DNA from: Demequina sp. NBRC 110055
GTDB taxonomy: Bacteria; Actinomycetota; Actinomycetes; Actinomycetales; Demequinaceae
Reading direction: 5' to 3'
DNA: 64,000 nucleotides
Assembly (NCBI RefSeq): GCF_002090135.1
Contig: NZ_BBRL01000007.1
Coordinates: 124,001 to 188,000 of the forward strand
Shown here: positions 846 through 63,149 of the stretch, one piece after another
Layout: each line of letters starts with the position of its first letter
Numbering within the stretch: the first letter of the stretch is position 1
The notes under the pieces: model-generated
The model's database searches: none
The model's input: only the letters and a program-made list of their open reading frames with translations
Told to the model about the DNA's origin: nothing
Translations under genes and position numbers: made by a program

Positions 846-1559
846 CTAGATGCGGCGCATCACCGAGACGACCTTGCCCATGATCGAGGCGTGGGTGCCG
901 TCGATGGGGGTGTAGGCGGGGTTGTGCGGCATCAGCCACACCTGGCCGTCGCGGCGGCGGAAGGTCTTCACGGTGGCCTCGTCGTCGAGCAGCGCCGCGA
1001 CGATGTCGCCGTTCTCGGCGGTGTGCTGACGGCGCACCACCACCCAGTCGCCATCACAGATGGCGGCGTCGATCATCGAATCTCCGGTGACGTTGAGCAT
1101 GAACAGCTCGCCCTCACCCGTGAGCTGACGCGGCAGCGCGAACACATCCTCGACGGCCTGGTCTGCCAGGACCGGCCCACCGGCGGCGATGCGGCCCACG
1201 AGCGGCACCATCGAGACGTCCTCGCGGCCGTCAGGGTGGGACGCGGCAACGGGTTCGGGGGAGGAGGCCGATGCCGTGGCGGGCTCGGTCTCCGGCATCA
1301 CCACTTCGATGGCGCGGGGACGGTGGGGATCGCGACGCAGGTAGCCCTTGGTCTCGAGCGCCGTCAGCTGGTGCTTGACCGATGACGTGGACGTGAGTCC
1401 CACGGCCTGGCCGATCTCGCGCATCGACGGCGGGTAGCCGCGTGACTCGACCGAGTCGCGGATGGTCAGGAGGATGCGGCGCTGACGCTCGGTCAGCGGA
1501 CCGCCCGACGTGTCAGGGAACTCGTGGATGGTGGCGCCCGCCTCGGTTCGCTCTGCCAT
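846..1559 (-). CDS. lexA: LexA repressor, SOS regulator
   Basis: LexA represses DNA-damage genes and cuts itself when RecA filaments form. Residues 21-86 are the winged-helix DNA-binding domain, with recognition helix around [10 protein letters not shown]. Residues 118-237 are the S24 peptidase domain. The scissile Ala126-Gly127 lies in RIAAGGP, the catalytic serine is S161 in GDSM and the lysine is K198 in ATVKTF. The length of 237 residues is normal for actinobacteria. The ATG at 1559 is preferred over upstream in-frame starts because AAGGAGGAG lies just before it and the HTH follows normally; a longer frame would read through the operator region. One SOS box lies over its predicted promoter, giving autorepression. 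It is divergent from the LysM gene, as at the lexA loci of Mycobacterium and Corynebacterium. Confidence 0.97.
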
Positions 1560-1626
1560 GTCTCCTCCTTGCGCGGCGTCGTGCCCGCGGTCGATGTCAG
1601 ACCCCTCTGGTGTGCTGACACCCATG

Positions 1627-1655
1627 ACGCTAGAGCAGAACACGCACCGAATCAA
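1627..1655 (-). promoter_or_regulatory. Predicted lexA promoter
   Basis: On the minus strand, TTGATT (plus-strand 1650-1655) and TAGCGT (1627-1632) are separated by 17 bp, a good vegetative-sigma fit. The -35 element overlaps the SOS box at 1652-1667, as expected for LexA autorepression. The transcription start is inferred, not seen. Confidence 0.5.
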
Positions 1656-1667
1656 ACACATGTTCGA
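1652..1667. promoter_or_regulatory. SOS box 1 (LexA operator, lexA side)
   Basis: TCAAACACATGTTCGA matches the actinobacterial LexA operator TCGAAC-N4-GTTCGA with one mismatch. It overlaps the predicted lexA -35 element and also lies upstream of the promoter of the divergent LysM gene. Confidence 0.85.
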
Positions 1668-1674
1668 GCGTGTC

Positions 1675-1703
1675 TTGTCAGCGCAGGGTTCCAGTGCTAC
1701 AAA
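1675..1703 (+). promoter_or_regulatory. Predicted promoter of the LysM gene
   Basis: TTGTCA (1675-1680) and TACAAA (1698-1703) are spaced by 17 bp. The expected transcription start falls inside SOS boxes 2 and 3, so bound LexA would block initiation directly. Confidence 0.6.
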
Positions 1704-1719
1704 TAGAACACGTGTTCGA
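1704..1719. promoter_or_regulatory. SOS box 2 (LexA operator)
   Basis: TAGAACACGTGTTCGA has a perfect 12-bp palindrome core at 1706-1717 and one mismatch to TCGAAC-N4-GTTCGA. It abuts SOS box 3, so two LexA dimers could sit side by side at the start of the LysM transcript. Confidence 0.85.
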
Positions 1720-1734
1720 CGAACATATGTTCGA
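1719..1734. promoter_or_regulatory. SOS box 3 (LexA operator)
   Basis: ACGAACATATGTTCGA has a perfect 14-bp palindrome at 1720-1733 and shares one base with SOS box 2. It ends 2 bp before the GGAGG ribosome-binding site of the LysM gene. Confidence 0.88.
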
Positions 1735-2924: not shown

Positions 2925-4577
2925 CTAGCGCTTCTTCTTGGGGCGAGGCTTGCCCTTGCGTCCGCGCGGCGGCGGGGGAGCGGACTTCTTCGTGCCCGGC
3001 GCCTTCTTGCGCGGGTTCGGATTGGGCTTGCGTTCGCGTCCACTCGAGCCGGCCCGCTCGTCGCTCCCGGGAGGGTGTTGACGGTTGGGCGCGCCACCTG
3101 CGGTGGAGGAGCGTCCGCTAGCGGAGCGTCCGCCATTGCGGCCCGCACCACCAGACTGCCGCTCGCGCGGTTCCTCGTCGCGCCCACGCGTGGCACGCCG
3201 AGGATCGCCGGCGCCGCGCGTCGGTGCCTTGCGGTCGCCGCGTGCACTGTCGCCGCGCGCACTGCCGCCCGCGCTGTCGCCGCGCTGACGGTCACGACGA
3301 TCGTCGTTGCGGTCGCGCCGCGGCGCGGTCGTGCCATGCTCGCCACGACGTTCGCCGCCCCGCGTTCGGTCGCTCGTGCGGCGCGTGTCGTGGTCAGTGT
3401 CGTGGCGCGTGCCGCGCTGGCCCCCTCGAGCGTCAGTGACGGGCGCACCGGACGGCTCACGCGCACCGGTCAGAGCGTCGATCATCGCGAGCGTCTCCGC
3501 ATCGGCCTCGCGGACCTTGCGAAACAGCGGCTCGATGCCCGTGGCGTCCACGATGCGGTCCATGGCCTTGCGTTGGTGGGGCAGGGCAAGCGTGACCACC
3601 AGGCCCTCGGCGCCGGCGCGCGCGGTGCGCCCGGCACGGTGGGTGTAGTCCTTGAAGTCCGATGGCGGGTCCAACTGGAGCACCAGGTCGACGTCCTCGA
3701 TGTGGAGCCCCCGAGCGGCGACGTCGGTGGCGACGAGGACGGGCGCGCGGCCGGACTTGAACGCCGCGATGGCGGTATTGCGCTCGTTCTGTTCCTTGTC
3801 CCCGTGCAGAGCGATGGCGTTCACACCGGCGCTGCGCATCTGCTCGGCTACCCGGTCACAGGCCATCTTGGTGCGCACGAACACGATCGTGCGGCCCCGG
3901 CGCGCGGCAATGCGAAGGGAGACCTCGTACTTGAGGTGCGGAGCGATGTTGAACACGACGTGGCGCATGGCGGCGTCGTCGCCCGTTGTCACGTCGTGGA
4001 GCACAGGCTCGTTCATGTGCTCGTCGATCAGCCGATCCACGTCGCCGTCGAGCGTCGCGGAAAACAGCAGATGCTGGGCATCCGAGGGGACGTCGGCGAG
4101 GATCTCCTCGATCTCCGTCATGAAGCCCATCTCGGCCATGTGGTCGGCCTCGTCCAGCACCACGATCTGGGTGGCCGAGGTGTCGGCATGGCCGCGGCGC
4201 ACCAGGTCCGCGAGGCGGCCGGGCGTCGCGATGACGAGCTTCACCCCGCGCTCGAGCGCGGCGATCTGCTTGGGCATGGACAGGCCGCCTGCCACCAGCT
4301 TGAGCGATACCTCCATGGTGTGCGCGAGGGGCTCGAGGGCATCGTGAACCTGGATGGCGAGCTCACGCGTGGGCACGAGCACGATGGCGTGCGGCTTGTG
4401 GGCACGCGGGCGCCCCGTCTCGGCCAGCCGTGCGAGCACCGGCAGGCCAAACCCGAGCGTCTTGCCCGAACCGGTCCGGGCCTTGCCCAGCACGTCGAAG
4501 CCCGCCACCGCGTCGGGAATCGTCGCGGCCTGAATGGGGAAGGGCGTGGTGATGCCGGCGCCCGCGAGGGCGCGCAC
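2925..4577 (-). CDS. DEAD-box ATP-dependent RNA helicase with long basic tail
   Basis: This is an SF2 RNA helicase for RNA unwinding, probably in ribosome assembly or mRNA turnover. Numbered from the GTG at 4577, the motifs are ARTGSGKT (33-40), PTREL (69-73), ATPGR (117-121), DEAD (142-145), SAT (173-175), ATDVAARG (283-290) and HRAGRTAR (313-320). From about residue 385 the tail is low-complexity Arg/Gly/Asp/Pro-rich, with GDSARGD-type repeats, and ends in KKKR; it is probably a disordered RNA-binding tail. The GTG start cuts off the conserved Q motif: in frame upstream the sequence reads SFAELGLPDAL, and the only candidate start there is a CTG at 4640 overlapping the serA stop (CTGA). The protein is therefore probably about 21 residues longer. 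It is translationally coupled to serA. Confidence 0.9.
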   Translation of the reverse strand: MRALAGAGITTPFPIQAATIPDAVAGFDVLGKARTGSGKTLGFGLPVLARLAETGRPRAHKPHAIVLVPTRELAIQVHDALEPLAHTMEVSLKLVAGGLSMPKQIAALERGVKLVIATPGRLADLVRRGHADTSATQIVVLDEADHMAEMGFMTEIEEILADVPSDAQHLLFSATLDGDVDRLIDEHMNEPVLHDVTTGDDAAMRHVVFNIAPHLKYEVSLRIAARRGRTIVFVRTKMACDRVAEQMRSAGVNAIALHGDKEQNERNTAIAAFKSGRAPVLVATDVAARGLHIEDVDLVLQLDPPSDFKDYTHRAGRTARAGAEGLVVTLALPHQRKAMDRIVDATGIEPLFRKVREADAETLAMIDALTGAREPSGAPVTDARGGQRGTRHDTDHDTRRTSDRTRGGERRGEHGTTAPRRDRNDDRRDRQRGDSAGGSARGDSARGDRKAPTRGAGDPRRATRGRDEEPRERQSGGAGRNGGRSASGRSSTAGGAPNRQHPPGSDERAGSSGRERKPNPNPRKKAPGTKKSAPPPPRGRKGKPRPKKKR

Positions 4578-6757: not shown

Positions 6758-8962
6758 CTAGTCCAGGTCCGTGAGCCCGTCGGGCAGGGCTTCGGCGTGC
6801 ACCATCTCGAGGCGACGCGTCGGACGCGTCAACGCCACGTACAGGTCGCCGGGGCGCTCGGCGATCGCGGCGGGTTCGACCACGATCGCGACGTCGAACT
6901 CGAGCCCCTTGGACTGGCGTGCCGTCATCACCGACACGCCTTCGATCTCGCCGCCGAGCTCCTCGCGCAGCGCGGGCAGCCACGTGTGCGGCGCGATGAT
7001 CGCCACGAGTCCGCCGTCCTCGCCTGCCATCCGGTCGGCGTGGGCGCGCGCGGCAGCCGCCGCGGTCGCCGCGAGGGCATCGCGCGACGTAGCGGTGGAC
7101 GCCACGGCGTCGTCCAGGTCCCTGGCCGCCGATAGGTCGCTGACGGGAAGGCCCGCGGCCATGGCGTAGGACTGCGCGGCGCGTGCCACCGCGGAGGGGA
7201 TGCGGTATGACACGGTGAGTTCCCGCAGTTGCCACGAGGGGCCAAACAGCGGGTCCATCGCCTCGGGCCACCAGCGCGTGCCTGCGGCCGAAGCCACCTG
7301 TGCCACGTCGCCCACGATCGTGAACGACCGGGTGGGGCAGCGCCGCAGCAGCATGCGCCACGCCATCGCCGACAGCTCCTGAGCCTCGTCGACCACCACG
7401 TGGCCGTAGGTCCAGGTACGGTCCTGGGCGGCGCGTTCGGCGACCGTCAGGCGTGACGACCCGCCCTTCATGCGTGCGGCCAAGTCCTCCGCCGTCACCA
7501 TGCCGTCCCCGCCGAAGGTCTCGAGCACCTCGCGGGCGTAGTCCAACTCCTCCTCCGTGGCCTCCTGGGATGCGCGCGGCGCGCCGCCGGGCATGTCGCC
7601 CAGCAGTTCGGCGGCCTCGTCGAGCAGCGGCACGTCGGCCTCGGTGAAGGGGGCCGAGGCGGGGCGCAGCAGCAGGTCGCGTTCCGCCCGGCTGAGGCCA
7701 CGAGCGGCATGATCGATGAGGTGGGCCTTCGAGAACAGATCGCGCAGCAGCTGGGCGGGCGTGACGGGTAGCCAGCACAGGTTGAGGGCCACACGGATCG
7801 TGCGGCTGTCGCGCACGTCACGCTCGAGTTCGAGGCGGTCCTCGGCGTCGAGCTGGCTCTCGAGCTGCTCGAGCAACTGGGTCGTGAGCCTGCTGATCAT
7901 GTCCTTCGCGAAGTGTGCCCTGGCCTCGTTGTGTGGGCGCCCGTCGCGCCGGGCACGCGCCTGCGCGTCGCGGATGTCGGAGCGGCGAATGACGACGGTG
8001 CGGCCGTCGATCTTCACCTCTTGGTCGCGCCGGGGCAGGCGTTGGCGCTCGCGGACGGCGGCCTTGATGACCCCCGCCATCTCGACGCGTCCCTTGATCG
8101 CGGCCACCGCATCGGCCTCGACCGCGGACGTGTCGACGCCGCGCACCAGGCCGCTGAGGGTGGTCGACACCGCGCCGGTCTCGCCCAGCGAGGGCAGCAC
8201 ATGGTCGATGTAGCGCAGGAACTGTCCCGAGGGGCCGATGAGCAGCACGCCGCGACGCTCGAGGCGCTCGCGGTGGTGATAGAGCAAAAAGGCGGCGCGG
8301 TGGAGGGCAACGGCGGTCTTGCCGGTACCGGGGCCGCCTTGCACCACGAGCGCCCCGTCGAGGTCGGCGCGGATGACCGCGTCCTGTTCTGCCTGGATCG
8401 TGGCGACGATGTCACCCATGCGTCCGGTACGGCGCGCATCGAGCGCGGCGAGGAGGGCACCCTCGCCGGCGAGCGTGCCCTCGAGCCCCGCCTCGCGCAG
8501 CGCCTCCACGTCGAGCACGTCGTCCTCGATCGCGGCCACCCGGCGGCCTCGGGTCGTGAGGTGGCGTCGGCTCATCACGCCCGAGGGGTCGGCGGCGGTC
8601 GCGGAGTAGAAGGCGCGCGCGGCGGGGGCGCGCCAGTCGGTGAGCAGGGGAGCGTGGTCTGCATCGGAGAGGCCGATGCGGCCCACGTAGAGGCGGTCGC
8701 CGTCACGCATGTCGAGACGCCCGAAGCACAACCGGTCCTCGACGGCGTCGAGTTGCGCGATGCGGTCCTCGTACAGCGTGGCGAAGGCGTCGCGCTCGGA
8801 GCGATTCTGGGGCGATCCGGACGGCCCGTCGCGCCTGATCGAGACGAGGCGACGGTCGGTTTCGTCGCGCAACTCGTCGAGCCGTGCGTACAGCCCATCG
8901 ACTACCCGCTGCTCGGCATCCAGGCCCTCCTTGAGAGCGGTCCGGGTGCTGTCCTCCTGCAT
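6758..8962 (-). CDS. helD: HelD-like UvrD-family ATPase, RNA polymerase recycling factor
   Basis: This 734-residue SF1 protein has an N-terminal coiled coil (about 12-40 and 55-80), Walker A GGPGTGKT (209-216), a DEAQ Walker B in VVDEAQELSAM, and C-terminal helicase motifs TARQSKGLEFD and LYVALTRPTRR. This is the layout of HelD, which in Bacillus and Mycobacterium inserts arms into RNA polymerase and uses ATP to free it from DNA. A general UvrD/PcrA helicase is less likely given the coiled-coil N-terminus. The start at 8962 is chosen over in-frame starts up to 9106 because the coiled coil begins immediately and the longer form would run into the promoter region of the divergent PAC2 gene. Confidence 0.85.
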   Translation of the reverse strand: MQEDSTRTALKEGLDAEQRVVDGLYARLDELRDETDRRLVSIRRDGPSGSPQNRSERDAFATLYEDRIAQLDAVEDRLCFGRLDMRDGDRLYVGRIGLSDADHAPLLTDWRAPAARAFYSATAADPSGVMSRRHLTTRGRRVAAIEDDVLDVEALREAGLEGTLAGEGALLAALDARRTGRMGDIVATIQAEQDAVIRADLDGALVVQGGPGTGKTAVALHRAAFLLYHHRERLERRGVLLIGPSGQFLRYIDHVLPSLGETGAVSTTLSGLVRGVDTSAVEADAVAAIKGRVEMAGVIKAAVRERQRLPRRDQEVKIDGRTVVIRRSDIRDAQARARRDGRPHNEARAHFAKDMISRLTTQLLEQLESQLDAEDRLELERDVRDSRTIRVALNLCWLPVTPAQLLRDLFSKAHLIDHAARGLSRAERDLLLRPASAPFTEADVPLLDEAAELLGDMPGGAPRASQEATEEELDYAREVLETFGGDGMVTAEDLAARMKGGSSRLTVAERAAQDRTWTYGHVVVDEAQELSAMAWRMLLRRCPTRSFTIVGDVAQVASAAGTRWWPEAMDPLFGPSWQLRELTVSYRIPSAVARAAQSYAMAAGLPVSDLSAARDLDDAVASTATSRDALAATAAAAARAHADRMAGEDGGLVAIIAPHTWLPALREELGGEIEGVSVMTARQSKGLEFDVAIVVEPAAIAERPGDLYVALTRPTRRLEMVHAEALPDGLTDLD

Positions 8963-10500: not shown

Positions 10501-10515
10501 GGCCGATGCCGTGGC
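10501..10515 (+). repeat. Intergenic copy of the GGCCGATGCCGTGGC repeat
   Basis: This is one of nine exact copies of this 15-mer in the window. It lies between the cspA terminator and the convergent spermidine-synthase-like gene, outside any coding frame I accept. Confidence 0.7.
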
Positions 10516-10545: not shown

Positions 10546-11325
10546 CTATCGCGCCCAGGCGGCGTCGACGACGGTGGGCAGGGGAGCCGACGCCGCGTAG
10601 CGACGCAGCTCGTCGACGTTCAGTCCCGCACCGGCGGCGAGCACCACGTTGCCCCGCCGCTTGCCTTTAAGTACCGCCGGTTCGCCGATCGCGACTACGT
10701 CACCGAAGGCCGCACGCGCCGCCGCCGCATCGGCCACGTGTGCGGCCGAGCCCGGCACGGTGCCCACATTCGCGACCACCACGCCCCCCGCACGCACCGT
10801 GCGACGGGCGTGCGACCACCACACGGCATCGGCCAAGGTCGGCGGCGTCAGCGCCTCGGAGAACGCGTCGCGCACCAGCACATCGAGGCTGTCGTCATGG
10901 CGAGACGCGACGGCGTCGAGACCGTCCTGGGCCCGCACCCGCAACTGAGGCGACCGTGGGAGGTCCCACCACTGACGGGCGAGCTCGGGCAGGGCGGTGT
11001 CGATGTCGACCGCGATATGGCGACTGTCCGGATATGCGTGCACCAGATAGCGCGCCATGGTGCACACGCCCGCACCCACATGCAGGGCGAGCATCCGTGC
11101 GGGACGCTGCCATGCCTCGATCACGGCCGCGATATGACGCATGTACTCGAAGTCGAGCACATCTTTTTCGACGCGCATCGAGGAACTGGGAACACCACGC
11201 ACCCATACGGTCGTTGAACCACCAGGCTCGTCCGTGAGCCGCACCACCCCGGTGGAGATCGGCATGTCGACGCCGCGAGCGACGCCCTCAGCCACTGCGG
11301 GGGACGTCGTTGATCTGCGTGACAT
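10546..11325 (-). CDS. Spermidine-synthase-like Rossmann-fold protein
   Basis: This 259-residue protein has the aminopropyl/methyltransferase fold: glycine motif LHVGAGVCTMARYL, an acidic end of strand 2 in HIAVDIDTALPELAR, and DGLDAVASRHDDSLDVLVRDAF matching the catalytic-loop region of the spermine/spermidine synthase family. The N-terminal beta region (VWVRGVPSSSMRVE ... LDFEYMRHIA) is also typical. Many actinobacterial members lack polyamine synthase activity, so the substrate is open. The start at 11325 is tentative; an internal ATG at 11265 would trim a 20-residue, poorly conserved leader. It is divergent from the DUF3040 gene. Confidence 0.75.
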   Translation of the reverse strand: MSRRSTTSPAVAEGVARGVDMPISTGVVRLTDEPGGSTTVWVRGVPSSSMRVEKDVLDFEYMRHIAAVIEAWQRPARMLALHVGAGVCTMARYLVHAYPDSRHIAVDIDTALPELARQWWDLPRSPQLRVRAQDGLDAVASRHDDSLDVLVRDAFSEALTPPTLADAVWWSHARRTVRAGGVVVANVGTVPGSAAHVADAAAARAAFGDVVAIGEPAVLKGKRRGNVVLAAGAGLNVDELRRYAASAPLPTVVDAAWAR

Positions 11326-18469: not shown

Positions 18470-20433
18470 TGGGCGACTCAGACGACCGGCGTCCCTCGTC
18501 CGGCAGGCGCGAGACTGGCCCTCGCCCCGGCACCGGACGCCAGCCCGGCGCCCGGCGCCAGCCGGGCACCGGAAGCCAGGCCGGCCGCCGCCCCCAGGGG
18601 GGCGCCGCGACGGGCCGTGCCACGGCATCGGCCCACCGCCCCGCATCGCGGCGCCGGCGTGCCCTCAGCATCGGCCGCCCGCAGGTGCGCCAGCAGGCCA
18701 TCACCCTGGGGGCGCTGGGCATCCTCACCGTCTTCGCCGCGCGGCTTGTGATGATTCAGGGCATTGACCCCGATGACCTCGCCACGCAGGCTCTCGAGAG
18801 CCGCCTGGCGACGTCGACCGTGACGACGGATCGCGCCGACATCGTGGACCGCAATGGTGAGGTGCTGGCCACCTCCGTCAACCGCTATCACGTTTGGGTC
18901 AACCAGCAGAAGCTCGCGGACTTCAAGCGCGTCGAGGACGGCACCGTGGTTGCGGAGGGAGCCCTCGACGCGGCCGCGATCCTCGCGCCCATCCTCGACT
19001 TGGACGAGTCGGAGCTCGCGGCCAAGCTCGTCGGCGACGACACGTTCGTCTACATCGCGAAGTACGTCACGCCAGAGACGTGGAGCCTCATCAGCGACGA
19101 GGGCATCTACGGTGTCGAGCCCGAGGCCGTGTCGGAGCGCATCTACCCCAACGGCGACCTCGCGGGAAACCTGGTCGGCTTCGTCGGCGGCGCCGCGGAC
19201 AAGCAGGGCGTCAACTGGGGCCTTGCCGGCATGGAAAAGTCGCAGGAGGACAGCCTCCTGGGCACCGACGGTTCGCTCACCTACGAGCGTGGCGGCAACG
19301 GCACGGCCATCCCTACTGGCGTGCTCGAGGAGACCCCCGCGGAGCCCGGCCAGGACGTGGTCCTCACCATCGACCGCGACATTCAGTACTACGCGCAGTC
19401 GCGGCTCGAGGAGGCGCTGTCGGTGACGGGCGCGAGCCACGGGTTCGTCACCGTCGAGGACACGCGCACGGGCGAGGTGTATGCGCTGGCCGACTCCGGC
19501 ACCGTTGACCCCAACGACCCCGGTGCGACGGACAACGAGAGCCGCAGCTCGCGGGCCATCGAGGACGTGTTCGAGCCCGGCTCGACCGCCAAGGCGATCA
19601 CCATGGCGGCCGCGATCGAGGAGGGCGTCATCACGCCGGGTAGCCGCTTCGAGGTGCCCTACGAGTACACGACCTCCAACGGCCAGACCTTCAAGGACTC
19701 CCACGAGCACGGCCTCGAGAAGATGACCGCGGCCGGCATCCTCGTGGACTCGTCCAACACGGGCACCGTGATGATCGGCGAGCAGCTGAGCACCGAGCAG
19801 CGCTACGAGTACCTCAAGGCGTTTGGCTTCGGCGAGGCCACCGGCATCGGCATGCCCTCGGAGTCCTCAGGAATCCTCAGCCACTGGGAAAACTGGGACG
19901 GGCGTTCGAAGTACGCGGTGCTGTACGGGCAGGCGGTCGCCGTGACGGCGCTGCAGACCTCGCAGGTTTACCAGACCCTCGCGAATGGCGGCGAGCGCGT
20001 GTCACCGAGCCTCATCAAGGGCTACCGCAACGCCGACGGCACCGTGACCCCGCGCGAGCAGTCCGAGCCGGTGCGCGTCGTGTCCGAGGAGACCGCCGAC
20101 CAGGTGATGCTCATGCTGGAGGACGTGACCGAGGAGGGCACCGGAACGCTCGCCAAGATCGACGGCTACCGCGTCGCGGGCAAGACCGGAACGGCGCAGG
20201 CGGTGGGCTCGAGCGGCAAGCTCGACTCGATCGTCGCGTCGTTCGTGGGTGTCGCGCCCGCGGATGATCCCGCCATCGTGGTCTCCGTGAGCCTCTTCGA
20301 CCCTAAGAGCTCGATCTGGGGCGGCGAGGTGGCCGCGCCGGTCTTCTCGGATGTGGCAACCTTCGCATTGCAGACTCTTCGGGTCCCTCCCTCGGGACCG
20401 GCCGAGGAGCTTTACCCGACGACCTGGGAGTAA
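18469..20433 (+). CDS. ftsI: Septal peptidoglycan transpeptidase (class B PBP), FtsI
   Basis: FtsI cross-links septal peptidoglycan and is a beta-lactam target. The 654-residue protein has a Gly/Arg/Pro-rich cytoplasmic tail (1-70), one membrane anchor (about 77-97), a dimerisation domain (TTDRADIVDRNGEVLATS) and the transpeptidase domain: S372-T-A-K375 (EPGSTAK), S428-S-N430 and K572-T-G574 (AGKTGTA). No PASTA domain follows. The ATG overlaps the ftsL stop (TAATG). It is predicted to work with FtsW, encoded in the same cluster. Confidence 0.96.
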   Translation: MGDSDDRRPSSGRRETGPRPGTGRQPGARRQPGTGSQAGRRPQGGAATGRATASAHRPASRRRRALSIGRPQVRQQAITLGALGILTVFAARLVMIQGIDPDDLATQALESRLATSTVTTDRADIVDRNGEVLATSVNRYHVWVNQQKLADFKRVEDGTVVAEGALDAAAILAPILDLDESELAAKLVGDDTFVYIAKYVTPETWSLISDEGIYGVEPEAVSERIYPNGDLAGNLVGFVGGAADKQGVNWGLAGMEKSQEDSLLGTDGSLTYERGGNGTAIPTGVLEETPAEPGQDVVLTIDRDIQYYAQSRLEEALSVTGASHGFVTVEDTRTGEVYALADSGTVDPNDPGATDNESRSSRAIEDVFEPGSTAKAITMAAAIEEGVITPGSRFEVPYEYTTSNGQTFKDSHEHGLEKMTAAGILVDSSNTGTVMIGEQLSTEQRYEYLKAFGFGEATGIGMPSESSGILSHWENWDGRSKYAVLYGQAVAVTALQTSQVYQTLANGGERVSPSLIKGYRNADGTVTPREQSEPVRVVSEETADQVMLMLEDVTEEGTGTLAKIDGYRVAGKTGTAQAVGSSGKLDSIVASFVGVAPADDPAIVVSVSLFDPKSSIWGGEVAAPVFSDVATFALQTLRVPPSGPAEELYPTTWE

Positions 20434-22002: not shown

Positions 22003-23396
22003 GGCCGCTGACCGCCCAATGGGTCGCGAACGCCGTCCGCGGCGAGCTCGCCGCCGACGTCACCGCAACCGTCACGTCCGTCGAGAAGGATTCGCGCGCC
22101 GTCACCGCCGGCGCACTGTATGTGGCATTCATCGGTGAGAGGGTCGACGGCCACGACTATGCGGCCCAGGCCTTCGAGGCGGGCGCCACCCTCGCGCTGG
22201 TCAGCCAGCCCGTGCCGGGTCCCCACGTCCTCGTGGACGATGTGGTCGCGGCGCTCGGCCACCTGGCGCAGGCCTACCTCGCGTTGCTGCGCACCGAGGG
22301 TGACATCACGGTGATCGGCATCACCGGCTCGAACGGCAAGACCACCACCAAGGACCTGCTCGCGCAGGTGTTGCCGGACTCGGTCGCGCCCGTGGGCTCG
22401 TTCAATAACGAGATCGGCCTGCCGCTGACGGTGCTCGGCGCGGATGCGGGCACACGTCACCTCGTTCTCGAGATGGGGGCCTCCGCGCCCGGCGACCTCG
22501 CCTACCTCACGGGCATCGCGCCGCTCGATGTGGCCGTCGAGCTCACGGTCGGTTCGGCCCACCTCGGCGGCTACGGCTCGCCCGAGGCGCTCGCCGAGGA
22601 AAAGGCGAGCCTCATCGACGGGCTGGTGCCCGGTGGCGTCGCCGTGCTCAACGCCGACGACCCGCGCGTCGCGGCGATGGCCGCTCGCCCCGCTCTCGCG
22701 GCCGAGGGCCGGCGCACCCGCACCTTCGGGGTAGGCGCGCGTGGGGGAGTCGACGTGTGTGCGACCGAGCTCACCAGCGACCGTGGCCGCGCCTCCTTCA
22801 TCCCCGAGGCCGATGGCGTCGTCACCGACCGCATCACCCTCGCGCTCGTGGGCGAGCACCACGCGACCAATGCGTTGGCCGCGCTGACGACGGCCCTCGC
22901 GTGCGGCATCGGCCTCGCGGACGCCGCCGCCGCGGTGGCGTCCGCCTCGCCCCTGAGCCCCCACCGCATGGCGCTCACCGAGCGCCCTGACGGCGTGTGG
23001 ATCCTCGACGACGCCTACAATGCGTCGCCCGAGTCCATGCGCGCCGCCCTGCGTGCCCTGAAGGACGTCGCCGTGGACGGCCGTTCCTTCGCGGTCGTGG
23101 GAGAGATGCTCGAGATGGGCGACGCGTCCCTGGCCGCGCACGAGGAGGTCGGCCTCGACGCGGTGCGCCTGCGCATCGACCACCTCGTCGTCGTTGGGGC
23201 GGGGGCGCGCGCCGCCTACGTCTCGGCTGTGCGCGAGGGCTCGTGGGGTGACGAGGCCGCCTTCGTCGCTACCATTGACGAGGCCCGCGCGTTCCTCGAC
23301 GGGCGCCTCACGCGTGGCGACACCGTGCTCGTCAAGGCGTCCCACGGCTCCGGGCTGTGGAAGCTGGCCGACGACCTGGTGGGAGAAACTGCATGA
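21999..23396 (+). CDS. murF: UDP-MurNAc-tripeptide:D-Ala-D-Ala ligase MurF
   Basis: MurF joins D-Ala-D-Ala to the tripeptide, completing the soluble pentapeptide precursor. The 465-residue protein has the ATP loop [12 protein letters not shown] (about 106-117), EMGAS (metal region), [12 protein letters not shown] (central ligase motif) and the [11 protein letters not shown] stretch typical of MurF. The ATG overlaps the murE stop (ATGA) and its own stop overlaps the mraY start, so the translation of these genes is chained. Confidence 0.96.
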
Positions 23397-49190: not shown

Positions 49191-49571
49191 GTGGCACCCA
49201 TGAGCACAGCCATGTGGCAGCGGGTTGAATCCATCGCCATCGCAGCAGGCATCGTGCTGGTGACCGTCATGGGCTTCGGCTACGCGTGGTGGTGGCTGCT
49301 CGCCCTCTTCCTGGTCTTCGACCTCAGCGCGCTTGGTTACCTCGCGGGTCCGCGCGTGTGTGCCGTGCTCTACAACGCCGGTCACTCGTACATTGGTCCC
49401 GTCCTTGCGGCCGGGCTTTTCGCCCTGTCGGGGGCCGATGCCGTGATGATTGCCGCTCTTGCCTGGGCTTTCCATGTCGCGGCGGACCGGGCGTTGGGGT
49501 ACGGGCTGAAGGAGAACGACGACTTTCAACATACCCACCTGGGTTGGATCGGCAAGCGCGAGGCGCACTGA
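49191..49571 (+). CDS. DUF4260 membrane protein
   Basis: This 126-residue protein has about four membrane helices and the DUF4260 signature GYLAGPRVCAVLYNAGHSY, then HVAADRALGYGLK. The function is unknown. The GTG at 49191 is chosen because GGGGAGG (49177-49183) lies 7 nt upstream; an ATG at 49200 is the alternative. The gene stands between a divergent SDR gene and hisD. Confidence 0.88.
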   Translation: MAPMSTAMWQRVESIAIAAGIVLVTVMGFGYAWWWLLALFLVFDLSALGYLAGPRVCAVLYNAGHSYIGPVLAAGLFALSGADAVMIAALAWAFHVAADRALGYGLKENDDFQHTHLGWIGKREAH

Positions 49572-51489: not shown

Positions 51490-53724
51490 CTACCGCACCC
51501 CAAGCACAAACGGGTAGACGGCGGAGGCCCCGGCCTGCTGAAGCAGCCGCGCCGCCACCGTGAGTGTCCAGCCGGAGTCCGTGTAGTCGTCGACCAGCAG
51601 CACCGCGCGCCCGCCAAGCGACGCGGCCGCCGCGTCCTCGAGCCGCAGCCGCCGCGCCACCACGGCGAGCCGCTGCGCCGAGTTCAGGTCATGCCGTCCC
51701 GGCTCCTCGAGCCCGGCCGCGGGCGACAGCCAGCCCAGGAACGGCATCTGCAGATACCTGGCTAGCCCGGGCGCGAGGTGGCCCATGAGCTGCGGCCGCG
51801 TCGTGGACCGCACCCCGACCACCGCGTCGATGGTCCGTACCCGGGTGAGGCCCGCGCCCGTCCACAGTCCGTCCCAGTCGTCGAGCACACGGGTCGCCGC
51901 TCCGCGCAGCGGCACCGGCGTCTCGCCGTCCACCGGCGCGCCCGACGCGTCGCGCGACTCCAACAGCTCGCGCAACTGCACGGCCCACCCCAGCCCGTCC
52001 AGGCGGGCCACGGCGCGTCCCGTCTCGGCCTGTTCGCCGGCGGGGATGCGCCCGCGTAGGTCCAGCCCCATGCGGTCCACGCCGCTGGGCCACTGCTTGC
52101 GGGCCACGACCTCCACGCCGACGCGGTCCATTTGCGTGCGAGTGGCCGCGACGGCATCGGCCGTCGGCACGGCGGGTAGCGACACCCCTCCACACACGTC
52201 GCACCGCCCGCACTGCCACCCATCGACCAGCTCCGGATCGTCGAGAACCCGCCGCAGGAACGCCATCCGGCACGTTTCCAGCCGCTCGTACTCGAGCATC
52301 GTGTCCTGCTCCGCCGCCCGCGCCGCCGCCACCCGCGCATACCGCTCGGCGTCGTACGCCCACGGCTCGCCCGTCGCGACCCAGCCGCCCTGGACTCGGC
52401 GCACCGCGCCGTCCACATCGAGCACCTTGAGCATCGACTCGAGCCGGCCGCGGCGCAGGTCCACAGCGGTCTCCAACGCGGGCACGGACGTGGACCTTTC
52501 TGCCGACAACGCACCCAGCGCGGCACGTACCTGCTCCTCGGGCGGGAATGCCTGGGAGCCGAACCACTCCCAGATCGCGCGATCCTCGGATCCCGGCAGC
52601 AGCACCACCGTCGCCCGGTCCACGCCGCGCCCCGCTCGCCCCACCTGCTGGTAGTACGCGATGGGGGAGGACGGCGCGCCCAGGTGCACTACGAAGGCGA
52701 GGTCGGGCTTGTCGAAGCCCATACCCAAAGCGGACGTCGCGATGAGCGCCTTCACGCGATTGGCCTTGAGGTCCTCCTCGAGGCTCTCGCGCTCGGTCGG
52801 ATCCGTGCGCCCCGTGTACGCCGCGACCTCGAGCCCGGCGGAGCGGAGTTGCGACGCCACCTCCTCCGCCGCGGAGACCGTGAGGCAGTACACGATCCCC
52901 GAGCCGTCGATCTCAGTGAGCGCCCCCGCGAGCCATGCCACCCGCGCGGCCGGATCTGGCAGCGACACCACCGCGAGGTGCAGCGACTCGCGGTCCAGCT
53001 CTCCGCGCAGCACCAGGACCTCCTCGCGGAGGGCGGTCTCGTCGCCTCCCGCCACGGCATCGGCCACCGCCGCGGGCGCCCGCACGCCCAGCTGCTCGGC
53101 CACATCCGCCGTCACCCGCGCGTTCGCGGTCGCCGTCGTGGCGAGCACCGGGATGCCCTCGGGTAGGTCCGCCAACAGCGTCCGAATGCGCCGGTAGTCG
53201 GGCCGGAAGTCGTGACCCCAGTCGGAGATGCAGTGCGCCTCGTCGATCACCACCAGGCCGGCATCGGCCGCGAGCCGGGGCAGCACCTCGTCGCGAAAGC
53301 CAGGGTTGTTGAGGCGCTCGGGCGAGCACAGCAGCACGTCGATCTCTCCACGGGCAATCGCGGCGTGCACGTCGTCCCACTCGGTTACGTTCGCGGAATT
53401 CACCGTCGCCGCCCGCGCCCCGGCGCGCGAGGCCGCCGCGATCTGATCGCGCATGAGCGCGAGCAGGGGGGAGACGATGACCGTCGGGCCCGCCCCACGC
53501 GCCCGCAGCAGCATGGTCGCCACGAAGTACACCGCGGACTTTCCCCACCCAGTGCGCTGCACCACGAGTGCCCGCGCATGCCTCGACACCAGCGCCTCGA
53601 TCGCGGTCCACTGGTCGTCGCGCAGTGCCACCTCGTCGCGGCCCACCAGGCGGCGCAGCGAGGCCTCGGCCTCCTCGCGGAGCGAGGTCTCGGTGGCCGA
53701 TGCGACAGCGGGCTGCGTACTCAT
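51490..53724 (-). CDS. RecQ-family DNA helicase with C-terminal phosphoribosyltransferase-like domain
   Basis: This 744-residue protein has an SF2 RecQ core: Walker A QRTGWGKS (56-63), DEAHCISDWGHDFRPDY (161-177), motif V ALGMGFDKPD, motif VI QQVGRAGRG, and a zinc-binding cluster ending WQCGRCDVCGG. No HRDC domain is evident. The last ~190 residues differ: they contain FLGWLSPAAG and end in VLLVDDYTDSGWT (about 708-720), the PRPP-loop motif of type I phosphoribosyltransferases. Such fusions occur in actinobacteria and their role is unknown. The start at 53724 gives a normal N-terminus; the gene is inserted between hisD and hisC on the opposite strand. Confidence 0.9.
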   Translation of the reverse strand: MSTQPAVASATETSLREEAEASLRRLVGRDEVALRDDQWTAIEALVSRHARALVVQRTGWGKSAVYFVATMLLRARGAGPTVIVSPLLALMRDQIAAASRAGARAATVNSANVTEWDDVHAAIARGEIDVLLCSPERLNNPGFRDEVLPRLAADAGLVVIDEAHCISDWGHDFRPDYRRIRTLLADLPEGIPVLATTATANARVTADVAEQLGVRAPAAVADAVAGGDETALREEVLVLRGELDRESLHLAVVSLPDPAARVAWLAGALTEIDGSGIVYCLTVSAAEEVASQLRSAGLEVAAYTGRTDPTERESLEEDLKANRVKALIATSALGMGFDKPDLAFVVHLGAPSSPIAYYQQVGRAGRGVDRATVVLLPGSEDRAIWEWFGSQAFPPEEQVRAALGALSAERSTSVPALETAVDLRRGRLESMLKVLDVDGAVRRVQGGWVATGEPWAYDAERYARVAAARAAEQDTMLEYERLETCRMAFLRRVLDDPELVDGWQCGRCDVCGGVSLPAVPTADAVAATRTQMDRVGVEVVARKQWPSGVDRMGLDLRGRIPAGEQAETGRAVARLDGLGWAVQLRELLESRDASGAPVDGETPVPLRGAATRVLDDWDGLWTGAGLTRVRTIDAVVGVRSTTRPQLMGHLAPGLARYLQMPFLGWLSPAAGLEEPGRHDLNSAQRLAVVARRLRLEDAAAASLGGRAVLLVDDYTDSGWTLTVAARLLQQAGASAVYPFVLGVR

Positions 53725-53759
53725 GCCCACCACGGTAGGGGGAGCCTGTGACAAGGTCG

Positions 53760-53774
53760 GCCACGGCATCGGCC
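53760..53774 (-). repeat. Intergenic copy of the GGCCGATGCCGTGGC repeat
   Basis: This is an exact reverse-strand copy of the 15-mer, located between the divergent recQ and hisC start codons, 30 bp before the hisC -10 box. Confidence 0.7.
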
Positions 53775-54911: not shown

Positions 54912-55507
54912 GCCGCACCGGACGCATCGAGCGCGCCACGAGCGAGTCGCAGGTGCTCGTCGAACTCGACCTGGACGGCTCGGGCGAGACGGACATCGAC
55001 ACCGGCGTCCCGTTCTACGACCACATGCTCACCGCGCTGGGCAAGCACTCGCTGATGAATCTCACGGTCAAGGCGACCGGGGACGTGCACATCGACTCGC
55101 ACCACACGGTCGAGGACATCGCCATCTGCATCGGCGAGGCGCTCAAGATCGCGCTGGGCGACAAGGCTGGTATTTCCCGCTTTGGCGACGCCTTGGTGCC
55201 GCTCGACGAGGCCCTGGCGCAGTGCGTGGTCGACGTCTCGGGCCGCCCGTACTTCGTGCACGTCGGCGAGCCCGTCGGTCAGGCCACGCACCTGATCGGC
55301 GGCAACTTCGCGGGCTCACTGACCGGCCACGCGCTGGAGTCGATCGCCCACCACGCCGGCATCTGCGTCCACATGCGCGTGCTCGCCGGGCGCGACCCTC
55401 ACCACATTGTCGAGGCCCAGTTCAAGGCCCTCGCCCGGGCGCTGCGCTTCGCAGTGACGGCCGATGCGAGGGTCAAGGGCATCCCATCCACGAAGGGCGC
55501 GCTGTGA
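54908..55507 (+). CDS. hisB: Imidazoleglycerol-phosphate dehydratase
   Basis: HisB dehydrates imidazole-glycerol phosphate to imidazole-acetol phosphate with two Mn2+. The 199-residue monofunctional enzyme has [18 protein letters not shown], the metal motif [11 protein letters not shown] and its repeat [13 protein letters not shown]. It starts at the ATG overlapping the hisC stop and overlaps the next gene (GTGA). Confidence 0.97.
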
Positions 55508-56122: not shown

Positions 56123-56137
56123 GGCCGATGCCGTGGC
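56123..56137 (+). repeat. Intergenic copy of the GGCCGATGCCGTGGC repeat
   Basis: This is an exact copy of the 15-mer, 4 bp after the stop codon of the his-operon protein gene. Together with the following bases (TGGC, then TCG) it also resembles the copy at 10501 over about 30 bp. Confidence 0.7.
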
Positions 56138-58159: not shown

Positions 58160-58846
58160 TTACCGCGAGCTTGCGTCGGCGCAGCAGTCGTCCTCGCAGG
58201 TGGTTTCGCTGCCGTGGAGCAGAGCACCTGAGGTCGTCGCGCAGCCGTCCCCGCGCCACGCCTCGAGCCCCTCGCGCACCGCGAAGCCGGCGATGACCAG
58301 CGCGGCGAGAGGGTCGGCCCACCACCAGCCGAGCGCGGCGTTGAGGACGAGCCCCACGAGAAGCGCCGCCGAAAGGTAGCTACACAGCACCAGCTGCCGA
58401 GAGTCGGCGATGGCCGTCGGGGAGCCGAGCTCACGGCCCGTGCGCCGCTCGAACCACGCGACACCGGGCATGATCGCGAGGGAGGCCGCCGCAAGCGCGA
58501 TGCCCACGGGCGAGACTTCTGCGGCTTCGGCACCCAGGAGCGCACGCCCCGCGTCGAACGTCACGACGAGGGCGAGGGCAAAGAACGCCCCCGCGATGAG
58601 GCGCAGCGTGACGCGCTCGCGCGTCCGTGGGTCGGGGGCGGCGAACTGCCAGGCAACAAAGGCGGCCGATGCCACTTCTACGACGGAGTCCAGCCCAAAC
58701 CCGAGAAGCGCGCTTGACGATGCCGCCGCACCCGCGGCCAGAGCAATGGCCGCCTCGGCGATGTTGTAGACGATGGTGCCCGCGACGATCAGCCGGATGC
58801 GCCGGCGCAGCACTGCGGCGCGGTCGGGCAGGAGTGTGGTCGTCAT
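58160..58846 (-). CDS. Cation transporter (CDF-like), ArsR-linked
   Basis: This 228-residue protein has about five to six membrane helices and CDF-family features: GFGLDSVVEVASAAFVAWQF in helix 2 (acidic pair), and ADSRQLVLCSYLSAALL, then WWWADPLAALVIAGFAVREG. The C-terminus is Cys-rich (DGCATTSG ... TCEDDCCAD), possibly binding the exported metal. It is predicted to export a divalent or heavy metal ion. The ATG overlaps the ArsR stop (TGATG), so the regulator and pump form one operon. No cytoplasmic CDF dimer domain follows, as in other short members of this group. Confidence 0.87.
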   Translation of the reverse strand: MTTTLLPDRAAVLRRRIRLIVAGTIVYNIAEAAIALAAGAAASSSALLGFGLDSVVEVASAAFVAWQFAAPDPRTRERVTLRLIAGAFFALALVVTFDAGRALLGAEAAEVSPVGIALAAASLAIMPGVAWFERRTGRELGSPTAIADSRQLVLCSYLSAALLVGLVLNAALGWWWADPLAALVIAGFAVREGLEAWRGDGCATTSGALLHGSETTCEDDCCADASSR

Positions 58847-59346: not shown

Positions 59347-59361
59347 GCCACGGCATCGGCC
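59347..59361 (-). repeat. Intergenic copy of the GGCCGATGCCGTGGC repeat
   Basis: This is an exact reverse-strand copy of the 15-mer, located in the priA 5' leader 37 bp before its start codon. Confidence 0.7.
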
Positions 59362-60336: not shown

Positions 60337-61062
60337 ATGAGCGACGCCGAGCCCTCCAAGGAGATCCCCGAGTCGATCTTTGCCGACGACGACGGTTCGG
60401 CCGATGCCCACCTGGCGCAGGCGCTGATCCGCCACTCGCGCGGCAAGGCGCCATTGGCCGATGTCGTCGACGCGCTCGCGTACGCGCGCGTGCTGATCCC
60501 GGTCCTCGCCCAGGGCGAGCAGCGCCACATGGGCAAGCACGGGCTCGAGCAGGACGCGGTCGCCTCGACGGGCGTGGTCGCGGTGCAGATGCCCGACGGT
60601 CGCGCGGCGCTGCCCGTCTTCACCGACGTCGACGCCGTGCAGGCGTGGAACGCCCAGGCGCGGCCCATCCCCGCCGAGGGTCCGCGTGCCGCGCTCGCCG
60701 CGATCGCCGAGGGCTGGTCGTCGCTCGTAGTGAACCCCGGCATGGAGACCGTCCTGATCCCACGCCCGGCGGTGTGGGCGCTCGGTCAGGGACAGCCGTG
60801 GCAGCCTGCGATCGAGGACGGCGTGGTGAGCGACGCGATCCGGGACGCGATCGTGACGGCCGTGACCCTCGACGAGGCCCTCCGAGCGGTCGATGCCGTC
60901 CCGGGCAGGGGAGCGGAGATCGCCGTGGTGCTCACGCTCGTGGGCGGCCTCACCCGGCCCGAGGTCGATGCCGTGGTGGAGAGGGTCCAGCGCGAGCTCT
61001 CGCACTCCGACGTCGTGGCCCAGCGCATCGACTCGCTCGAGCTGCGCCTTGCGACGGCCTAG
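60337..61062 (+). CDS. SseB-family protein
   Basis: This 241-residue cytoplasmic protein has the SseB N-terminal domain (about 25-140: LAQALIRHSRGKAPLADV, LIPVL, ALPVFTDVDAVQAWN) and a second alpha/beta half (SDAIRDAIVTAV ... LTLVGGLTRPEVD). SseB-type proteins are widespread and poorly understood; in actinobacteria they often lie between priA and infC, as here. No catalytic motif is seen. It converges on the trypsin-like gene with 6 bp between stops. Confidence 0.83.
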   Translation: MSDAEPSKEIPESIFADDDGSADAHLAQALIRHSRGKAPLADVVDALAYARVLIPVLAQGEQRHMGKHGLEQDAVASTGVVAVQMPDGRAALPVFTDVDAVQAWNAQARPIPAEGPRAALAAIAEGWSSLVVNPGMETVLIPRPAVWALGQGQPWQPAIEDGVVSDAIRDAIVTAVTLDEALRAVDAVPGRGAEIAVVLTLVGGLTRPEVDAVVERVQRELSHSDVVAQRIDSLELRLATA

Positions 61063-61068
61063 CGCAGG

Positions 61069-61851
61069 CTAGTTGAGCCCGGCGGCCGCGCCGGAGCCTC
61101 CCAAGGCAGCGGCGCACGCCGACGACTGCGGCACCAGCAGTTTGGGCTGTGCCAGCAGCGAGTTCAGCATGGAGACGGGAACGATATAACTCTGATCCGT
61201 CGTGTTCGAGCGCGCGTAGACCACACCCACCACGTCGCCGTCCTCATTCAAGACGGGCGAGCCGGAGGAGCCAGGCTGCACGACCGCGGTGGTCGCGAGC
61301 ACGGTGCCCACGGCGCCGCCGTCGTTGTTCTCGACCGGGTCCTTGGTCGCTCCCAGGACCACGCCGGTGGTGGTGGTGAGGCGGCCGCCGTTGGGGTAGC
61401 CCACGACGGTGATGGCGTCGCCCTCCGCGGGGTCCTCCTGCGCGAGCGCGGCGAAGGCGCCGCCCATCGCGGTGGTGGTCTTGAGGATGGCGAGGTCGGC
61501 CACGGTCGTGACCTCGGCTGCCTCGACCTCGATCACCCGGCCATCGTGGGTCGACACCTCGAGTGTCGCCGAGTCGTTGATGACGTGCCGGTTCGTCACG
61601 AGCGTGAACGCGTCGAGGGCGAAGCCGGACCCGGTCGTGACGGCGCCGCAGCCGCTGTTGCGCACGCGCACCGTCATGCGCTGAGCCGCGGAGAAACCGT
61701 CGGGAGACAGGGCGACGTTGTTCTGCTCCGGTGCGGCCGAGGGCGCGGGCACCCAGTTCGTGGGCATCGCGCCAGGGGTCGCGGGCAGGGCCGCGCAGCC
61801 GGTCAGCGCGAGGGCTCCGGCGGCGAGGGTGACGGCGAGCGCGCGCCTCAC
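61069..61851 (-). CDS. Trypsin-like serine protease lipoprotein
   Basis: This 260-residue protein has a lipoprotein signal (lipobox LTGC, Cys19) and a trypsin-fold protease domain with His89 (VTNRHVIN), Asp119 (TVADLAIL) and Ser196 (PGSSGSPV). It lacks a PDZ domain, so it is not a full HtrA/DegP. It is predicted to act on the outer face of the membrane. The GTG at 61851 overlaps the stop of the upstream coiled-coil gene (GTGA), which fixes the start and shows co-translation. Confidence 0.88.
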   Translation of the reverse strand: MRRALAVTLAAGALALTGCAALPATPGAMPTNWVPAPSAAPEQNNVALSPDGFSAAQRMTVRVRNSGCGAVTTGSGFALDAFTLVTNRHVINDSATLEVSTHDGRVIEVEAAEVTTVADLAILKTTTAMGGAFAALAQEDPAEGDAITVVGYPNGGRLTTTTGVVLGATKDPVENNDGGAVGTVLATTAVVQPGSSGSPVLNEDGDVVGVVYARSNTTDQSYIVPVSMLNSLLAQPKLLVPQSSACAAALGGSGAAAGLN

Positions 61852-62747
61852 TCCGTCAACGCTCCCTGGAACCGCGCGGTCGCGGCGTCCGCGTTGTCGC
61901 ACAGGTCGGACACGTTGGAGGCGTACTCGGTGATCTGCTCGGGCTCGTACTCATCCTCGGGGGCCTGGAGGTAGGCCGTGAGCTGTTCGAGGCCGTCGAT
62001 GCACGAGTTGAGGGTCGCCGTCGCGGCCTGGCCGAGGCTCAGCGTCTCCTCGAGTGTGGTGATGACCTGGCTGGTCAGTTCCTGAGAATCGAGGGCCGCG
62101 GCCTTCTCGGCGGACACGTCGGTGAGGCGATCGTTCGAGGTGGCCAACTGCTGCGAGAGCAGGTCCACCTCCTGTTGCTTCTCGGTGAGGTTCTGCTGCA
62201 CGCCGGCAATCTGCTCGCCCAGGTCGTAGTTCGCCGACGTCACGTCGTCGGCGTACGCCTGCCACTCCTCATTGATCTGCCACATGCGCCACCCCAGGTA
62301 GCCCGCGCCGATGAGCGCAAGGGCAAGCACGCTCGTGGCGATGATCCACGGGCGGCGCGACTTCGGGGGGTACACGGGGCCGATGACCGGCATGGCTCCC
62401 GTAATGGGGTTCGCCTCGCCCACAATCGGAATCGAGCCGGTCGGGGTGTAGCGGGCCAGGCCGCCGAGCGGGATGTCGCCCTCGGCGGTGACCTCGGCGG
62501 CCTTCGGGCGCGCGGGGGCCGCCGGCTCAGCGACGGCATCGGCCTCAGTTACGGCATCGGCCTCATCGTCGATAAACGGATCGGGGTCGTCGTCGCGCGG
62601 CGGTTCGACGGGTTCGTCGGCGGGGTCACGCCGGGGCAGGATGACCGTGTCTTCGTCGTCGCGGTCCAGATCCTCGTCGAGCGCAGGGTCGCCAGGGACA
62701 GCGGGAGTGGTCCCGTCGTTGGTGGTGGCGTCCTGCGGACGAATCAT
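61848..62747 (-). CDS. Membrane coiled-coil protein encoded with a serine protease
   Basis: This 299-residue bitopic protein has a long acidic, disordered cytoplasmic half (1-~130; Asp/Glu/Pro-rich, with a duplicated EADAV encoded by two copies of the 9-bp repeat core), one membrane helix (about 133-153: PWIIATSVLALALIGAGYL) and an external coiled coil (about 155-240). The C-terminal part has a Cys pair (C247 and C283, approximately). I recognise no family. It is translated between a DUF1844 gene (adjacent stop and start) and the protease (overlapping), so a role with the protease is plausible but unproven. Confidence 0.75.
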   Translation of the reverse strand: MIRPQDATTNDGTTPAVPGDPALDEDLDRDDEDTVILPRRDPADEPVEPPRDDDPDPFIDDEADAVTEADAVAEPAAPARPKAAEVTAEGDIPLGGLARYTPTGSIPIVGEANPITGAMPVIGPVYPPKSRRPWIIATSVLALALIGAGYLGWRMWQINEEWQAYADDVTSANYDLGEQIAGVQQNLTEKQQEVDLLSQQLATSNDRLTDVSAEKAAALDSQELTSQVITTLEETLSLGQAATATLNSCIDGLEQLTAYLQAPEDEYEPEQITEYASNVSDLCDNADAATARFQGALTE

Positions 62748-63149
62748 CTAACTCACAGCCCCCGTGTACTTCTCTCCCGGGCCGTCACCCGGTGCGTCGG
62801 GGACCACTGAGGCCTCCCGGAACGCCAACTGTACGCTTCGTAGTCCGTCACGCAGCGCTCGTGCATGAGTGTCGCCAAGATCCGGTGCGGCAGCCGTGAT
62901 GAGGCCAGCCAGGGCGTTGATGAGGGTGCGCGCCTCGTCCAGGTCCTGGTGCTCCTCGCCGTCCTCGGCAAGGCCGCAGCGGAGCGCGGCGGCGCTCAAC
63001 AGATGAACGCTTACCGTAGAGATAAGTTCCACCGCGTTGACCTCGGCCAGGTCTCGGGCGGCCGATGCCGTGGCGGCGGCCGTAGCGGAGGGCACCTGCG
63101 AGGCGGCGACGGCGCCGTCTGCATCGGCGGCGGGCATGTCAGAGGTCAT
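62748..63149 (-). CDS. DUF1844 protein
   Basis: This 133-residue protein matches DUF1844, found next to infC in many actinobacteria: [30 protein letters not shown] and [13 protein letters not shown] are typical. It is small, helical, with no membrane segment. Function unknown. The ATG at 63149 is the best start (AAGGA upstream); a frame extending to 63290 overlaps the infC leader and is rejected. Its stop (TAG) directly abuts the next gene's ATG. Confidence 0.88.
63060..63074 (+). repeat. Coding copy of the GGCCGATGCCGTGGC repeat
   Basis: This is an exact copy of the 15-mer lying antisense to the DUF1844 coding frame, where it encodes part of an Ala/Thr-rich linker. Confidence 0.65.

Follow-up and report, generated by a model that had tools for sequence, protein, structure and literature searches.

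Why should one short motif recur dozens of times, on both strands and inside as well as between genes, within a single stretch of an actinobacterial genome? The stretch (hereafter the window) comprises 64,000 nucleotides of Demequina sp. NBRC 110055 (contig NZ_BBRL01000007.1, positions 124,001 to 188,000), and the motif is a 9-bp core, GGCCGATGC, which in some of its copies is extended to the 15-mer GGCCGATGCCGTGGC. On the sequence evidence assembled below, we consider it highly likely that GGCCGATGC is a species-specific DNA uptake sequence, that is, a putative tag of self-DNA in a Gram-positive lineage. We also think it likely that such motifs form a third independently evolved class of uptake sequences and the first from any Gram-positive phylum. 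This class would comprise three or more core dialects within a single genus as well as a related motif in another family, and its receptor would be something other than the ordinary pilins of the pilus operon and maybe no basic ComP-like pilin at all.

Abundance in window and genome

The 15-mer occurs in the window in nine exact copies (5 on the + strand, 4 on the - strand; 0 expected from 100 dinucleotide shuffles), all of them where an initial annotation of the bare sequence had placed them. That annotation had put the core at about 35 copies against roughly 2 expected; we counted 38 (18 +, 20 -), compared with an expectation of 2.75 and a maximum of 9 in the same number of dinucleotide shuffles. 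Called genes contain 31 of the 38 cores and three of the nine 15-mers, the other six 15-mers being intergenic. When genes were lengthened to their most upstream start, three 15-mers (10501, 56123 and 59347) were still intergenic. The copies are listed below, beginning with the 15-mers; the remaining entries come from the core scan of the window.

1266..1280, +, 15-mer within called gene 846-1559 (-)
10501..10515, +, 15-mer between convergent called genes
18619..18633, -, 15-mer between called genes, yet within the longer open reading frame (ORF) 18469-20433 (+)
20634..20648, +, 15-mer within called gene 20437-22002 (+)
53051..53065, -, 15-mer within called gene 51490-53733 (-), a RecQ-like helicase
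53760..53774, -, 15-mer between divergent called genes, yet touching the longer ORF 51490-53769 (-)
56123..56137, +, 15-mer between convergent called genes, 5 bp past the end of 55504-56118 (+)
59347..59361, -, 15-mer between divergent called genes
63060..63074, +, 15-mer between called genes, yet within the longer ORF 62865-63998 (+)
3499..3507, -, 9-bp core
8109..8117, -, 9-bp core
8671..8679, +, 9-bp core
10727..10735, -, 9-bp core
10826..10834, -, 9-bp core
18668..18676, -, 9-bp core
22906..22914, -, 9-bp core
24617..24625, +, 9-bp core
24722..24730, +, 9-bp core
27368..27376, +, 9-bp core
29857..29865, -, 9-bp core
31247..31255, +, 9-bp core
32146..32154, +, 9-bp core
32966..32974, -, 9-bp core
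34399..34407, -, 9-bp core
35699..35707, -, 9-bp core
40810..40818, -, 9-bp core
41991..41999, +, 9-bp core
42612..42620, +, 9-bp core
42730..42738, -, 9-bp core
49433..49441, +, 9-bp core
52154..52162, -, 9-bp core
53261..53269, -, 9-bp core
53695..53703, +, 9-bp core
55459..55467, +, 9-bp core
58664..58672, +, 9-bp core
60399..60407, +, 9-bp core
62536..62544, -, 9-bp core
62554..62562, -, 9-bp core

Across the whole genome (G000; 2,821,661 bases in 14 contigs, 70% GC), the 15-mer is present 208 times (108 +, 100 -), with 0 hits for a reversed-pattern control, and the core 1,732 times (869 +, 863 -), or once per 1.6 kb, compared with 92 hits (37 and 55) for its reversed control. A 464-kb sample, consisting of the window and 20 stretches of 20 kb from contig C4, contains 276 cores (142 +, 134 -; 595 per Mb), which is 8.8-fold more than the 31.5 expected under an order-4 Markov model. 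None of the 27 one-base variants of the core exceeds 1.75 times its own Markov expectation in this sample, several lie below expectation, and the flanks carry information from about -3 to +18 (roughly G-A/G-C-GGCCGATGC-C-G-T-G-G-C-C-A/G-n-C). Since variants are not enriched and flanks are informative, the signal is that of one precise 9-mer followed by a graded 3' extension. Strong similarity between copies stops within ~20 bp.

Codon bias alone does not explain this abundance, as the initial annotation had surmised. A simple custom gene caller assigned 395 genes (87.6% coding) to the 464-kb sample, and the 209 coding copies compare with a mean of 29.9 and a maximum of 41 in 200 within-gene synonymous-codon shuffles (0 of 200 as high), far above a codon-aware expectation. 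The supposition that copies lie in genes in different frames as well as in intergenic gaps also holds: five of the six frames are occupied (131, 55, 19, 3, 1 and 0 of the 209 coding cores), so that the motif is not confined to one frame, though 131 copies share one. Within GCC-Asp-GCC, the Asp codon is GAT in 120 of 152 cases, while overall GAT makes up only 1,488 of 9,091 Asp codons, and the tripeptide Ala-Asp-Ala is itself enriched (296 vs 176). Because a rare codon is favored and the tripeptide is over-represented, the motif seems to bend the protein sequence a little.

Location, dialects and origin of the sites

By called genes, 67 of the 276 cores in the G000 sample, the sole material of this test, are located in the 12.4% that is intergenic, where 1.6 would be expected, and 29 of 55 copies of an extended 14-mer likewise fall between genes. 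As the gene caller trims some starts, we recounted with the longest ORFs, which left 44 of 276 cores and 20 of 55 14-mers in the 8.7% then intergenic (binomial P = 8e-5 and 2e-8, respectively). The true intergenic share lies between these two sets of figures; the recount lowers the share and leaves the conclusion unchanged. Seventeen pairs of cores in the sample are close together (≤60 bp), and 11 of them stand in the +- order that forms a stem-loop (P = 0.0006 at an expected 1/4). Ten of these 11 lie outside called genes (8 by longest ORFs) and six begin 5-27 bp past a stop codon; six +- pairs folded as RNA reached -40 to -52 kcal/mol.

Core spelling varies between species. Among 44 genomes of the genus, 18 favor GGCCGATGC (GGC), 16 favor GGACGATGC (GGA), 2 favor CCCGACGCTG (CCC-type), and 8 are weak or unresolved; CGA-T/C-GC is common to the core forms. 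GGC genomes carry 584 to 2,018 copies of GGCCGATGC and at most 275 of GGACGATGC, GGA genomes 929 to 1,864 copies of GGACGATGC, and the two CCC-type genomes 663 and 209 copies of CCCGACGCTG. The hairpin examples found in G026 and G009 are spelled in the dialect of their own genome. Extensions differ as well: the 14-mer is abundant in G024 (444), G000 (325), G015 (141), G059 (80) and G010 (77) and rare in G014 (3), G035 (5) and G034 (5), and the base following the core is G in 88% of cases in G014 and 83% in G035. On a tree of one gene, metE, from 28 genomes, dialects are clustered (7 changes vs a mean of 12.7 for shuffled labels), with the GGA label requiring two changes.

In a set of 396 genomes of the order, none outside the genus has more than 20 copies of the 14-mer; in 197 other genomes of the phylum, the 15-mer never exceeds 3 copies. 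A related form, CCCGATGCCGT, is found in a second family (f20), of which 18 genomes were counted: the top five hold 289, 259, 219, 216 and 142 copies (controls 1 to 5), and two (G174 and G276) show no excess. Single genomes of 18 other families hold 1 to 20 copies. The sole other genus sampled from the Demequina family (G192) has 12 copies of CCCGATGCCGT (control 1), and 120 kb of its sequence revealed no related motif. A scan of viral sequences gave one match per locus in the 80 loci listed of at least 120. A scan of genome contigs likewise gave a single match in each of the 80 stretches listed of at least 117, from many unrelated species. MetE matched 354 plasmid records; the eight listed are all actinobacterial, with 52-55% identity, in keeping with placement in the Actinomycetota.

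How such sites come and go can be read from five orthologous alignment columns (metE in up to 28 genomes, aroE in up to 19), where presence and absence differ by base substitution; G009 is gapped at one such column, and just past another the sequence is a residue shorter in several aroE rows. In metE, for example, GGCCGATGC (Ala-Asp-Ala) in G000 corresponds to GGACGATGC (Asp-Asp-Ala) in G025 and G026. Other GGA genomes retain the GGC form at that site, and the site at metE column 23 is common across dialects, so that part of the pattern reflects protein conservation. One 20-kb stretch of G000 (L014, C4:404001-424000; GC 0.66) contains a single core, compared with a mean of 11.9 over the 20 stretches. 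It encodes GH115, mannonate dehydratase, mannitol dehydrogenase and parts of an ABC transporter, and looks like an accessory glucuronate/xylan-utilisation island that was presumably acquired.

Competence machinery and a candidate receptor

Components of a putative uptake machine are widespread: ComEC was matched in 43 of the 44 genomes (the one without a match is 85% complete) and N-methyl pilins in all 44. In G000, where alone comEA was read, ComEA (SLBB and helix-hairpin-helix domains) is followed by ComEC. The full pilus operon, also read in G000 only, runs from aroE to aroC with pilB, pilT, pilC, pilA, two minor pilins, a PilX-like gene, pilD, pilM, pilN and pilO; secretion ATPase, T2SSF and N-methyl families were assigned by Pfam, and gene names by order and inspection of the sequences. 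Both pilB and pilT matched in all 19 other pilus loci fetched.

A further pilin of ~140 residues is encoded apart from this operon; in G000 and other genomes its gene is flanked by metE and an acetyltransferase gene. This orphan pilin (L249:3975-4460, -) and its orthologues share two invariant cysteines in 17 aligned sequences. In a profile search (E 1e-12), with operon membership judged from coordinates, 30 of 44 genomes showed a clear copy outside the operon, and G018 showed one beside metE; matches are partial in G014 and G007, and G005 and G013 are undecided. The orphan pilin adjoining metE in G014 (L305) fits the profile over its N-terminal half only and may be truncated. Some further proteins (L333:2833-3369, -, with similar frames in L334, L336, L339, L340 and L342-L344) show an unusual arrangement, in which an N-terminal GWYxDP...RYWDG segment is followed by a hydrophobic stretch and a C-terminal part matching the orphan-pilin profile.

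Two close relatives, G024 and G015, share the dialect of G000 and bear on which pilin might read the motif. Their orphan pilins are 78 and 68% identical to that of G000, as against only 24-43% for pilA, pilX, pilD, pilM and pilN, with minor pilins and pilO under the cut-off and pilB, pilT and pilC at 68-84%. Genomes with other extensions or dialects (G008, G014, G035 and G060) are closer to G000 in pilD (56-59%) and pilM (49-61%), and G061, which has the core and orphan pilin of G000, also has a similar operon (pilM 58%). The minor pilins of the operon are thus rejected as sole determinant of the dialect, since G024 and G015 share the dialect yet differ in operon pilins. Among G000, G024, G015 and G061 the orphan pilin tracks the dialect, whereas the operon pilins of G024 and G015 do not; this makes the orphan pilin a candidate receptor, though no more than that. 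The orphan pilin of G004 (GGA) is by eye nearest that of G001 and unlike those of other GGA genomes. The operon between aroE and aroC itself appears as if swapped or fast-evolving among close relatives. Between L189 (G000:C10:1-20000) and both L190 and L191, aroC is 92-97% identical and pilM 38-39%.

Competing explanations and known uptake systems

A motif that is genome-wide and sharply defined could also mark the binding site of a chromosome-organizing, repair or recombination protein (Chi-like, KOPS-like or nucleoid-associated), and its dialects could track a coevolving protein that has come to prefer different sequences in different species. Polarity is characteristic of Chi and KOPS sites, however, and the strand symmetry already inferred by the initial annotation, together with its argument against such polarity, is upheld genome-wide (869 vs 863) and with respect to GC skew (in the 20 stretches of G000, the G-rich strand has 125 copies and the C-rich strand 113). 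Inverted-pair hairpins behind genes, as seen in G000, would not be expected of such sites either, and we regard this explanation as unlikely. Maintenance by DNA modification, as a methyltransferase or restriction target or as a signature upheld by methylation and repair like HIP1 of cyanobacteria, is quite improbable. HIP1, too, is a short word found throughout the genome at far more than chance frequency, and it is a palindrome; the HIP1-like option of the initial annotation fails on this point, as GGCCGATGC and its complement GCATCGGCC differ when read directly. The graded 3' extension to about +18 also speaks against this class, restriction sites are usually avoided rather than enriched, and we are aware of neither dialects nor hairpin pairs in HIP1.

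The many near-identical copies, some of them arranged as inverted pairs, might instead suggest a small mobile or REP-like (repetitive extragenic palindrome) repeat spread by insertion. Similarity that ends within ~20 bp, coding copies in intact frames, and substitutions rather than insertions at the five metE and aroE columns make this very hard to believe, and the spreading small repeat proposed initially is contradicted at those five columns. The uptake-like signature from the same list of interpretations is the one supported, by the sharp core, the intergenic excess, the inverted pairs behind genes, the dialects, the pilus and comEA-comEC. A role in transcription termination, or as another kind of RNA element, with copies that may also stand alone, has the eleven +- pairs in its favor, which fold into strong hairpins and for the most part follow genes. 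However, the majority of the 276 cores in the sample have no partner, 209 lie inside called genes, and the hairpins inspected lack a T run; the chance of this explanation is very slim.

We therefore return to the uptake sequence, most of whose genomic hallmarks are present in the motif of G000. If this reading is correct, a type IV pilus/ComEA/ComEC machine would carry a surface receptor with a preference for the motif during natural transformation, and tagged DNA from kin would be taken up and recombined more often. Tags would arise by point mutation and accumulate wherever the encoded protein allows (mostly in Ala-Asp-Ala, Ala-Ser-Ala and x-Ile-Gly codons). They would build up most of all in intergenic DNA, where two inverted copies may form a terminator-like hairpin. 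A shift in receptor specificity could then lead to the tags of a genome being rewritten into a new dialect. We infer natural transformability, motif-biased uptake, hairpins that terminate transcription, and this cycle of drift and drive from the genomic patterns.

Several observations weigh against the uptake reading. The hairpins inspected have no T run behind them and their downstream sequence is not T-rich; whatever their order, the 17 close pairs in G000 are only moderately more than the 10.1 that random spacing would give; and nine other genomes pooled gave 21 pairs, 8 of them +-, 7 --, 3 -+ and 3 ++ (P = 0.13), with G014 supplying 3 +- among its 4 close pairs. Dialects overlap, in that the 16 GGA genomes still carry 134 to 664 copies of GGCCGATGC (controls 77 to 139), and 8 of 44 genomes have no clear dialect (G001, G003, G005, G007, G013, G018, G028 and G033). 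Of these, G007 (472 copies of GGCCGATGC, control 74) and G018 (409, control 46) tend towards the GGC form, and k-mer discovery suggests GCCGACGCTG as the dialect of G003. In G009, G027 and G061 the match to ComEC falls into two frames, possibly through faulty genes or assemblies. No clear orphan pilin was found outside the operon in 9 of 44 genomes (G011, G019, G020, G021, G027, G032, G059, G062 and G063), each of which holds at least 584 copies of a dialect core. The head of the orphan pilin is acidic in all 17 aligned sequences (charge -9 in G000, range -2 to -16), as are the operon pilins of G000, and species kinship equally explains the likeness of the orphan pilins of G000, G024 and G015. 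Finally, the open-access literature gave no transformation or uptake data for the genus, and a query for Demequina with natural competence returned no match.

Known uptake sequences provide a standard of comparison. The DNA uptake sequence (DUS) of the Neisseriaceae resembles the motif in its short core, its about a thousand to several thousand copies in coding and intergenic DNA, its inverted terminator-like pairs (here clear in G000 only), its dialects that track phylogeny and lie few bases apart, and its association with a type IV pilus and ComEC. The consulted part of one DUS study describes dialects, inverted pairs and permissive intergenic sites, covering most features found here (PMC3630211). 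Unlike DUS, which is read by the receptor ComP, the motif has an unrelated sequence, occurs in a high-GC Gram-positive lineage with presumably no outer membrane to cross, and has only a candidate pilin as putative counterpart of ComP, in organisms whose transformability is a prediction. The uptake signal sequence (USS) of the Pasteurellaceae (proposed receptor ComN/PpdA) likewise combines a 9-bp core and graded extension with intergenic excess and uneven frame use. The USS sequence is unrelated and its flank AT-rich, whereas the extension here is GC-rich. According to the consulted part of a USS study, 65% of copies lie in ORFs, compared with about 86% coding sequence (PMC2346458).

A 2025 paper, in its consulted part, calls Neisseriaceae and Pasteurellaceae "the only families known" with sequence-marked self-preference, and applies a coevolution scan to USS (PMC12616744). 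For the actinobacterium Micrococcus luteus, the consulted part of a review reports Flp-pilus-dependent transformation and does not mention an uptake motif (PMC6370729). We found no open-access paper on an uptake sequence in this phylum, judging mostly from lists of results, and no title about genome signatures among the matches listed for GGCCGATGC. If the motif is indeed an uptake sequence, uptake tagging would not be tied to the Gram-negative envelope, given a third lineage without an outer membrane; natural competence would be predicted in the genus, opening a route to the design of transforming DNA. Species that vary in dialect, and relatives with differing pilus operons and the same dialect, would offer a natural experiment on the receptor and on species isolation.

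Two minor observations concern other repeats. One stretch of G000 (L015, C4:468001-488000) has six TTTCACGTGAAA sites in 20 kb, which we take to be parS-like and presumably near the replication origin. Genome G122 (L160, L323-L325) has a different, GTTACAGGGGACGGTTCC-like repeat, its commonest 12-mer occurring in 14 copies in 44 kb.

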